Positions 1,236 to 28,036 of a DNA stretch of 64,000 nucleotides are shown here, piece by piece (positions within the stretch are counted from its first letter, which is position 1; every line of letters begins with the position of its first letter). Below the pieces are notes generated by a model. It searched no databases, was not told the DNA's origin, and saw only the letters and a list, made by a program, of their open reading frames with translations. The DNA is from an uncultured Pelagibacteraceae bacterium (GTDB lineage: Bacteria; Pseudomonadota; Alphaproteobacteria; Pelagibacterales; Pelagibacteraceae). The stretch covers positions 88,803 to 152,802 of the forward strand of contig CACFTX010000002.1 of NCBI GenBank assembly GCA_902569405.1, given 5' to 3'. A program made the position numbers and the translations under genes.

Positions 1236-1902
1236 AAAAAATAAAATATACATATATTTATTTATCTTTTTTTTGCTAAGTACTATCAATAATCAAAAAA
1301 TAGTTAATTCAAAATTTTTTAAATTTAATGTCAATCAAATAGAAGTTTCAGGTCTTTCAGAAAAAAATAACTTACTTATTTCAAATGAAATAAAAAAAAT
1401 ATTTTTAGGAAATATTTTTTTAATCAAAAAAGAATTTTTATTAGAAATTTTAAAAAAAAATAATTTGATAAATTCATTTGAAATAAAAAAAATATATCCA
1501 GATAAAATAGAAATTAAAATAGAAAAAACAGAGTTTTTAGGAATAACAAACATCGATGGAAATTTTTTTTTTATAGGATCTAATGGAAAATTAATTAATC
1601 ATAGAGATACAAAAAAAATTTTACCATATGTATTTGGAAAAATTAATATTAATAATTTTATTCAATTTGTAAAAATTATTCATCAGTCAAAATTTAATTA
1701 TAATCAAATTAAAGAAATTTATTTCTTTCCATCCGGAAGATGGGATATAAAAACCAAAGATAATCAATTGATTAAGTTGCCAATAGAAAATCTAAGATTT
1801 AAATTAGATTCAATAAGTAAGATTAATAACATTGAAAAATTTAAAAATGCAAAAATAATTGATCTGAGGTTTGCTAACAAAATCATTACAACAAATGAGT
1901 GA
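1216..1902 (+). CDS. ftsQ: Cell division protein FtsQ
   Basis: FtsQ is a bitopic inner-membrane divisome scaffold. This 228-residue protein has a short cytoplasmic N-terminus, a membrane segment at about residues 11-24 (IYLFIFFLLSTI), and then a POTRA-like start (FNVNQIEVSGLSEKNN) followed by the hallmark KKIYPDKIEIKIEKTE and the IDGNFFFIGSNGKLI beta-hairpin. It lies between ddl and an ftsA-like gene, the standard order. It starts inside the end of ddl and ends in an ATGAGTGA overlap with the next gene. It is rather short and very lysine-rich, but all expected parts can be traced. Confidence 0.88.
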   Translation: MHQKIDKKNKIYIYLFIFFLLSTINNQKIVNSKFFKFNVNQIEVSGLSEKNNLLISNEIKKIFLGNIFLIKKEFLLEILKKNNLINSFEIKKIYPDKIEIKIEKTEFLGITNIDGNFFFIGSNGKLINHRDTKKILPYVFGKININNFIQFVKIIHQSKFNYNQIKEIYFFPSGRWDIKTKDNQLIKLPIENLRFKLDSISKINNIEKFKNAKIIDLRFANKIITTNE

Positions 1903-2605
1903 AAAAGAAATCGATGTTTATTTTAGTTTAAATAAAAAAGAATTAAGCGTTGGTGTTTTTAAAAAATTAGATCATAGTTTAATTTTTTTCAATGTAGAAA
2001 ATATCAATACTGTTTCTTTAAATGAAGATACCAATTTTGAAATATTAGAAAAACCCATAGAAAAAAATATTAGAATAATAGAAAAGAATATAGATTCATT
2101 TATAACCAATATTTTTTTAATGATAGATACAAATGAAACAATATCTATTTATATTTCTTTAATGAAAAAACTTGATAATAAAAAGATCCAACAAAAGGAT
2201 ATTAAATATCTTATACAAGATGCCAAACTTCAAATTCTTAAAGCACATTCTGATAAGGATATTTTACACATACTTGTAAACAAATATGTTGTTAATGATT
2301 TAGATTATGATTTTGTACCTTTGGATATTAACTGTAATAAAATTTCTATAGATATTCAATTTATTTGCCTTACTAAAAATTTAACCAAAAAAATAGAAAC
2401 TTTGTTTAATAATTTTCAAATTTCAGTTGATAGAATGATCTGCTCAAATTATGCAAAATCTTTCGTGAGTAACGAGAATCAAGGTAATATTTGTCAAATT
2501 GGGTATAATTTAAATAGAGGTCTTAATAAACAAGAAGTTTTAATAGTTCCTAAAAAAATTGAAAAAAGCGGTTTTTTTGAGAAACTTTTTCACTTTTTTA
2601 AATAA
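1895..2605 (+). CDS. ftsA: Truncated FtsA-like protein (mini-FtsA, no ATPase domain 2)
   Basis: Position after ftsQ and sequence indicate FtsA, the actin-like membrane tether of the Z-ring, but the protein is only 236 residues where FtsA is normally around 400 or more. I place the start at the ATG at 1895 overlapping the ftsQ stop, not the upstream TTG of the ORF track. The middle (HILVNKYVVNDLDYDF through FQISVDRMICSNYAKS) matches the FtsA-specific SHS2/1C subdomain. The expected DIGGGT phosphate loop and subdomains 2A/2B are absent. The protein instead runs into a short tail ending KSGFFEKLFHFFK, which looks like the amphipathic membrane-targeting helix of FtsA. Only 65 bases separate it from lpxC, so there is no room for a lost second half or for ftsZ. 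Confidence 0.7.
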   Translation: MSEKEIDVYFSLNKKELSVGVFKKLDHSLIFFNVENINTVSLNEDTNFEILEKPIEKNIRIIEKNIDSFITNIFLMIDTNETISIYISLMKKLDNKKIQQKDIKYLIQDAKLQILKAHSDKDILHILVNKYVVNDLDYDFVPLDINCNKISIDIQFICLTKNLTKKIETLFNNFQISVDRMICSNYAKSFVSNENQGNICQIGYNLNRGLNKQEVLIVPKKIEKSGFFEKLFHFFK

Positions 2606-2670: not shown

Positions 2671-3591
2671 ATGTCAGTTTTAAATCAAAAAACAATCAAA
2701 AGACCAATTATCTTTGATGGTGTTGCCTTGCATTCTGGAAAAATGGCACACATGGAAATTAAACCTGCCCAACCAAATACTGGTGTAGTTTTTAAAAGAA
2801 CTGATTTAAAAAATAATAATATAGTAATTCCTGGAATTTTTAATGTTAGTAGTGCAGTTTTTTGTACAACAATTTCAAATGATTATGGTGTAAAAATTTC
2901 AACAATTGAACATCTAATGGGTGCATTTTCTGGAATGGGAATTGACAATGCTATAGTGGAAATAGATGGAGATGAACTTCCTATTATGGATGGTTCTGCC
3001 AAACTTTATGTTGATGAAATAAGTCGTTCTGGAATTGACATCAGCAATTCACCAATAAAAGTTGTTAAGATAGAAAAAAAAATAACCTTAAAAGATGAAA
3101 AAAAAACTATTTCTATAGAACCAAGTAAGTTAAGTTTAGATATAGATTTTGAAATTAAATATAAAAACTCTTTGATTGGAAATCAAAGAAATTTTATAAA
3201 AGTTTATGAAGATGACCTTACCGACATATTTAATTCAAGAACTTTTTGTTTATATGAAGATATAGATAAGTTAAAACAAATAAATTTAGCTAAAGGTGGT
3301 TCCTTAGAAAATGCTATTGTTGTTCAAAATGAAAAAGTTCTAAATAAAAATGGTTTAAGAAATAAACTAGAATTTGTAAATCATAAAATTCTTGATTGTA
3401 TTGGAGATTTATATTTGTCCGGTTATAAAATTATTGGAAAACTCATATGTTCACAAGGTGGTCATAAATTAACAAATCAATTATTAAGGAAAGTTTTTGA
3501 GAATAATTCAAATTTTTCAATTATAGAGGTTAAAGAAAGCAAAATTCCTCATTCGTTAATCAACAAAAGATATCTAAAATCAATAGCTTAA
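2671..3591 (+). CDS. lpxC: UDP-3-O-acyl-N-acetylglucosamine deacetylase LpxC
   Basis: LpxC catalyses the committed step of lipid A synthesis, a zinc-dependent deacetylation in the cytoplasm. The 306-residue protein shows the family's paired domains: VALHSGK near residue 20, the zinc-ligand motif TIEHLMGAFSGMGIDNA near residue 78, ELPIMDGSA, and the C-terminal NHKILDCIGDLYLSG with the second histidine and the aspartate ligand. This means the cell makes lipid A and has a lipopolysaccharide-type outer membrane. It follows the ftsA-like gene after a short T-rich spacer; ftsZ, which often lies here, is missing. Its own weak promoter in that spacer is possible. Confidence 0.95.
   Translation: MSVLNQKTIKRPIIFDGVALHSGKMAHMEIKPAQPNTGVVFKRTDLKNNNIVIPGIFNVSSAVFCTTISNDYGVKISTIEHLMGAFSGMGIDNAIVEIDGDELPIMDGSAKLYVDEISRSGIDISNSPIKVVKIEKKITLKDEKKTISIEPSKLSLDIDFEIKYKNSLIGNQRNFIKVYEDDLTDIFNSRTFCLYEDIDKLKQINLAKGGSLENAIVVQNEKVLNKNGLRNKLEFVNHKILDCIGDLYLSGYKIIGKLICSQGGHKLTNQLLRKVFENNSNFSIIEVKESKIPHSLINKRYLKSIA

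Positions 3592-27001: not shown

Positions 27002-28036
<1,035 letters not shown>

Follow-up and report, generated by a model that had tools for sequence, protein, structure and literature searches.

In dozens of Pelagibacter species, the slot between ftsQ and lpxC is occupied by an FtsA of only 222–237 amino acids, from which the actin half has been removed and the rest of which is under selection, in cells that are very abundant in the ocean. The purpose that FtsA serves in division as an actin, which binds ATP and forms filaments, is a standing question that this mini form addresses. We put at about one half the probability that mini-FtsA, built of domain 1 only, serves the divisome as a membrane adaptor that needs no nucleotide and forms no filaments.

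The window analyzed here is a stretch of 64,000 nucleotides from a Pelagibacter (SAR11) genome of 98.6% completeness; all window coordinates refer to the forward strand. The first-pass annotation had guessed Pelagibacterales, correctly. The ftsA reading frame (1895–2605), identified by its match to the TIGR01174 model and by the fold of its AlphaFold model, has 236 codons from ATG to stop and encodes 236 amino acids. It overlaps the stop of ftsQ (1216–1902; FtsQ_DivIB_C and POTRA_1 matches) by 8 bp, and lpxC (2671–3591; PF03331, 1.5e-91) starts after a gap of 65 bp. The order ddl-ftsQ-ftsA-lpxC is found in the window and in its relatives, which is the operon position of FtsA. The TIGR01174 match (5.9e-13) aligned protein residues 47–189 with model positions 45–185 of 371, and no match to the second half of FtsA was found. 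The score of 48.6 bits is below the NCBIfam equivalog cut-off of 175.85 bits, which only 2 of the 101 searched relatives passed, so this cut-off is strict for the order to which Pelagibacter belongs. The IC/SHS2 subdomain (residues 84–157, 2144–2365) was recognized by PF02491 (SHS2_FTSA) above the gathering score (1.6e-6), and together with the fold match this shows that it lies in FtsA's own place.

The motifs were compared in an alignment of 97 proteins, which were 49 full-length and 48 mini FtsAs. As judged from this alignment, domain 2 (subdomains IIA and IIB) is removed by an in-frame internal deletion that kept the C-terminus, because the residues beyond the gap correspond to the tail of the full-length proteins in relatives (GLNKQEVLIVPKK...GFFEKLFHFFK in the mini form versus GLNKQEVVVVPKK...GFFEKLFHLFK in the full-length form). 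The sequence runs from the middle of IA (CSNYAKS) across the gap left by IIA and IIB to the C-terminal IA helix, the linker, and the membrane helix. Alignment with same-genus proteins of 363–399 amino acids places the excision at about residues 189–196 (2459–2482), and the C-terminal helix of IA follows at residues 199–207 (2489–2515), where the AlphaFold model agrees with the alignment, which pairs it with the C-terminal part of IA in full-length relatives. The first-pass annotation had stated that subdomains 2A and 2B and the DIGGGT region were gone, and the alignment, Pfam and the model all agree with it. Its picture of a lost domain 2 needs correction in two respects, as the deletion is internal and in frame, and domain 1 has lost its phosphate-1 motif in addition. 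At the place of this motif (1919–1948) the protein reads YFSLNKKELS, compared with YLDFGSSKIR in one full-length relative; the aspartate is present in 48/49 and the glycine in 49/49 full-length proteins, and neither is retained in the 48 minis. The adenosine-site G-x-G-S, found in all 49 full-length proteins, is also absent from the 48 minis, in which all three parts of the bipartite ATP site (phosphate 1, phosphate 2 and adenosine) are therefore missing. The absence of these parts suggests that mini-FtsA would neither bind ATP nor form canonical filaments.

The linker contains a motif, GxNxxEV (2519–2539), which is near-invariant in the minis only (N and E in 48/48, V in 43/48, G in 42/48), while at the same positions of the full-length proteins N was found in 22/49 and E in 27/49. 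At the C-terminus, GFFEKLFHFFK (2570–2602) is predicted to form the amphipathic membrane-targeting helix. Its hydrophobic moment of 0.56 was reached or exceeded by 5% of shuffled sequences, and it is modeled as a helix at residues 227–234, at low confidence. The core residues G, F, and F of this helix are present in 97/97 proteins of both classes, which, together with the PF02491 match, confirms the earlier description of a reduced FtsA that keeps SHS2 and the membrane helix. The scanned full-length relatives matched PF14450, while the scanned minis matched SHS2 alone or nothing.

The AlphaFold model, based on 44 aligned proteins, was confident (pLDDT 86.5, pTM 0.80), with low confidence in the linker at residues 219–226. 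As with sequence and Pfam, no two-domain actin fold with IIA and IIB was seen in the model; a full actin fold had been named beforehand as a reason to doubt the reduction, and the prediction gave only an IA–IC body, which superposes on solved FtsA. In the fold search the 19 best PDB matches were FtsA chains, with 7q6i_B at the top (TM 0.69 by query), followed by PilM and then by GspL/EpsL, and a sequence profile of seven minis found the PDB FtsA 7q6d (5.7e-7).

Among known systems mini-FtsA is most similar to FtsA itself (TIGR01174; PDB 7q6i, 7q6d, 4a2a, 1e4g), with which it shares the operon slot, the IA and IC/SHS2 fold, and the C-terminal amphipathic helix, and from which it differs in lacking IIA/IIB, the ATP motifs, the known FtsZ pocket, and the longitudinal filament contact. 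Full-length Pelagibacter FtsA, such as that of HTCC9565, has the same gene, slot, tail, and membrane helix, but retains domain 2 (PF14450) and the phosphate-1 and adenosine motifs. PilM of type IV pili (5eou, 2ych) also has an IA–IC body, and it binds the tail of bitopic PilN in the same cleft; it differs in having both actin domains and ATP, in its pilus context, and in the weaker match. The identification of mini-FtsA as a PilM was rejected, because FtsA chains outranked every PilM chain and the gene lies in a division operon rather than a pilus context. The cytoplasmic domain of GspL/EpsL from type II secretion (1yf5, 4pht) is a degenerate actin fold. Like mini-FtsA it is a reduced actin-like adaptor on the membrane side, of 224–238 amino acids, but the match is weak (TM 0.35–0.39), and the protein belongs to another system and is anchored as a bitopic protein, not through an amphipathic helix.

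To see where the two forms occur, 399 Pelagibacter genomes were searched. In the ftsQ-lpxC slot at least 97 frames encode full-length FtsA of 363–406 amino acids, two of them cut by contig ends and two with an internal TAA, and at least 48 mini frames were found among the matches listed. The full-length-class genes at G010:C2:70922-72061 (L049) and G380:C1:173117-174286 each contain one internal TAA. By the contig scan the relatives belong to Pelagibacteraceae or Candidatus Pelagibacter; for example, strain HTCC9565 (L115) has an FtsA of 368 amino acids, and the single cell AAA795-E22 has a mini. All 10 near-complete genomes that were inspected, four of them in one contig, had the short gene in the slot, with one copy frameshifted and one cut by a contig end. 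The 20 checked genomes without an FtsA match were not taken as true cases of ftsA absence, as they had no lpxC match either, and the ftsA region is probably missing from these assemblies. The length comparison proposed in the first-pass annotation thus showed that the short form is conserved in many species. Outside the genus the protein is long, with 393–401 amino acids in the sister family of the same order and a 407-amino-acid frame in a second genus of the family to which Pelagibacter belongs. No SHS2 frame in 118 other alphaproteobacterial genomes was shorter than 398 amino acids, compared with about 235 for the minis, so that the window frame was the sole one below 398 among 119 SHS2-positive genomes. 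Minis are 39–46% identical to the closest full-length Pelagibacter FtsA over the shared part, and 25–45% identical among themselves, with invariant residues. Of the two most diverged minis scanned, L165 had no NCBIfam or Pfam match and L160 a weak one, and such weak recognition may account for minis having gone unnoticed. Because the form recurs in independent single-cell and metagenome assemblies, assembly error was ruled out. A phage origin was rejected as well, with no match in 50,697 phage records.

The anatomy can be compared with contacts known from solved FtsA, in which the FtsN tail sits in the IA–IC cleft, lateral contacts are made through IC, and the longitudinal contact is that of IIA–IIB (PMC7613929). 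The C-terminal peptide of E. coli FtsZ binds subdomain 2B (PMC9098913). With the in-frame loss of IIA/IIB went the ATP site, the longitudinal contact of the filament, and the pocket known to bind the FtsZ peptide; what is left is a folded IA–IC body that a flexible linker joins to an amphipathic membrane-targeting helix. As the protein keeps the FtsN-cleft and IC surfaces but not the longitudinal surface, the FtsZ pocket, or the ATP site, it is best read as a monomeric or laterally paired membrane adaptor. It may retain a late role of FtsA, in which some bitopic divisome protein would have its cytoplasmic tail bound in the IA–IC cleft, by analogy with FtsN in Vibrio and E. coli and with PilN on PilM, perhaps with lateral pairing via IC, and FtsZ anchoring would be left to some other factor. 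This reading is favored by the clean domain boundaries and the correlated loss of phosphate 1, by the difference in Pfam content between the two classes and the purifying selection, by a confident model superposing on IA–IC and a membrane helix in both classes, and by PilM and the smaller GspL/EpsL cytoplasmic domain as the next fold matches. Against it, no SPOR-domain match, and hence no FtsN, was found in the genome of the window. The SPOR proteins seen in other Pelagibacter genomes (L199–L204) are lipoprotein-like, of RlpA type, and encoded beside a D-Ala-D-Ala carboxypeptidase-like gene. FtsN was therefore set aside as the cleft partner, as these proteins look like RlpA and gave no FtsN candidate. 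FtsX_ECD gave no match, but as it missed the Caulobacter control as well, this negative carries no weight.

The mini form raises directly the question of how FtsZ is attached to the membrane in these cells. The ftsZ gene (481 amino acids, C2:74938-76383, which is L035:6939-8384) is the sole tubulin-family match in the genome, and instead of its normal place in the ftsA-lpxC interval it occupies a site about 14 kb upstream of ftsA, with mraZ and rsmH as its neighbors. All Pelagibacter loci of sufficient length have the order mraZ-ftsZ-rsmH, and the sister family has mraZ-ftsZ as well. The C-terminal sequence of FtsZ, EIPAFLRRQK followed by N, D, or H, is identical in mini and full-length Pelagibacter species. 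ZapA was present in all ten genomes examined for division proteins, and neither SepF nor ZipA was found in them, which also counts against the adaptor role, as there is then no known anchor for FtsZ if mini-FtsA does not hold it. This leads to the strongest alternative, that mini-FtsA still anchors the Z-ring by means of a new FtsZ-peptide site in domain 1 or the GxNxxEV linker, without ATP or filaments. We regard it as possible though rather doubtful. The unchanged peptide, which would also fit a retained contact and so counts against the adaptor role, would be explained by it, as would the missing SepF and ZipA, the kept membrane helix, and the linker motif specific to minis. On the other hand, the loss of IIB took the known pocket with it, and the domain-1 site is only putative; moreover, other proteins also bind the peptide, which is conserved throughout the alphaproteobacteria, and FtsA is therefore not singled out by this conservation. 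For the same reason, that the FtsZ-binding subdomain IIB is among the lost parts, the word tether used in the first-pass annotation is a weak one for this protein. It is plausible, if somewhat short of probable, that cell division in dozens of Pelagibacter species relies on an FtsA that does not bind ATP, polymerize, or hold FtsZ in the known way. In that case the actin half of FtsA is dispensable, domain 1 is the part retained as an adaptor, and FtsZ is attached by a route not yet described.

The selection on the short gene was estimated from NG86 dN/dS values, which were 0.13–0.30 for mini pairs and 0.10–0.29 for ftsQ in the same pairs, while full-length ftsA, in other pairs, gave 0.12–0.16. 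Hence, the minis are under purifying selection, which is perhaps a little weaker than on the full form. The idea that mini-FtsA is a decaying remnant heading for loss, with little function left, is improbable and was already disfavored by these values, which are like those of ftsQ, as well as by the constant length, the presence of the gene in all ten near-complete genomes, the invariant residues at 25–45% identity, and the confident fold. It could draw on the fast divergence that puts some minis below family models, on dN/dS at the upper end of the range of the neighboring genes, and on a frameshift in one closed genome. In that genome (G012, L163:720-1415) mini-ftsA reads in two frames, with the shift near an A run, for which sequencing error, pseudogene, or slippage are candidates. 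Recent truncation was ruled out by the independent assemblies and the selection, and the view that the reduction is settled, as first proposed, holds for many species. A full-length ftsA in close relatives at this site, together with relaxed selection on the short copy, had been named as evidence against it; such relatives do exist, but selection is not relaxed, as the closest mini pair gave 0.21 for ftsA versus 0.18 for ftsQ.

In trees of the flanking genes the minis did not form one clade, and a clade of 363–372-amino-acid proteins was placed among them. Constraining the minis together was modestly rejected with the flanking genes (AU p 0.03) and with the flanking genes plus FtsA (p 0.034), and not rejected with FtsA alone (p 0.54), in a test made post hoc, after the pattern had been seen, with quick trees and neighboring genes that may recombine. 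Several deletions are thus likelier than one, on modest evidence, and the matter is not settled.

The search of the genome with TIGR01174 found no second piece of FtsA; the other matches were MreB and one 643-amino-acid frame, presumably DnaK, which ruled out a split gene with a detached domain 2. The possibility that another protein, such as MreB, provides the missing half in trans, rebuilding an FtsA-like dimer from two genes, is very improbable, because mreB, although it lies in the window (27002–28036) and matches FtsA model positions 169–346, is intact with its DIGGGT and its own domain 1, and is equally present alongside full-length FtsA.

The literature on FtsA and Pelagibacter or SAR11, in which subscription papers and preprints were barely covered, contained passing co-occurrences and no description of a mini-FtsA. 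Because close relatives still have the whole protein, the gene can be compared in one and the same slot before and after the loss, as in a natural experiment. In these full-length Pelagibacter proteins the phosphate-2 motif reads D-[IVM]-G-x-x-[KR]-[TS] rather than DIGGGT, and IIB looks shortened (loci L037–L054). The decay of FtsA may have begun before the deletion. In full-length FtsA of the sister family (L005, L027, L032), DIRADK or DIRPDR replaces the DIG(S/T) phosphate-1 motif.
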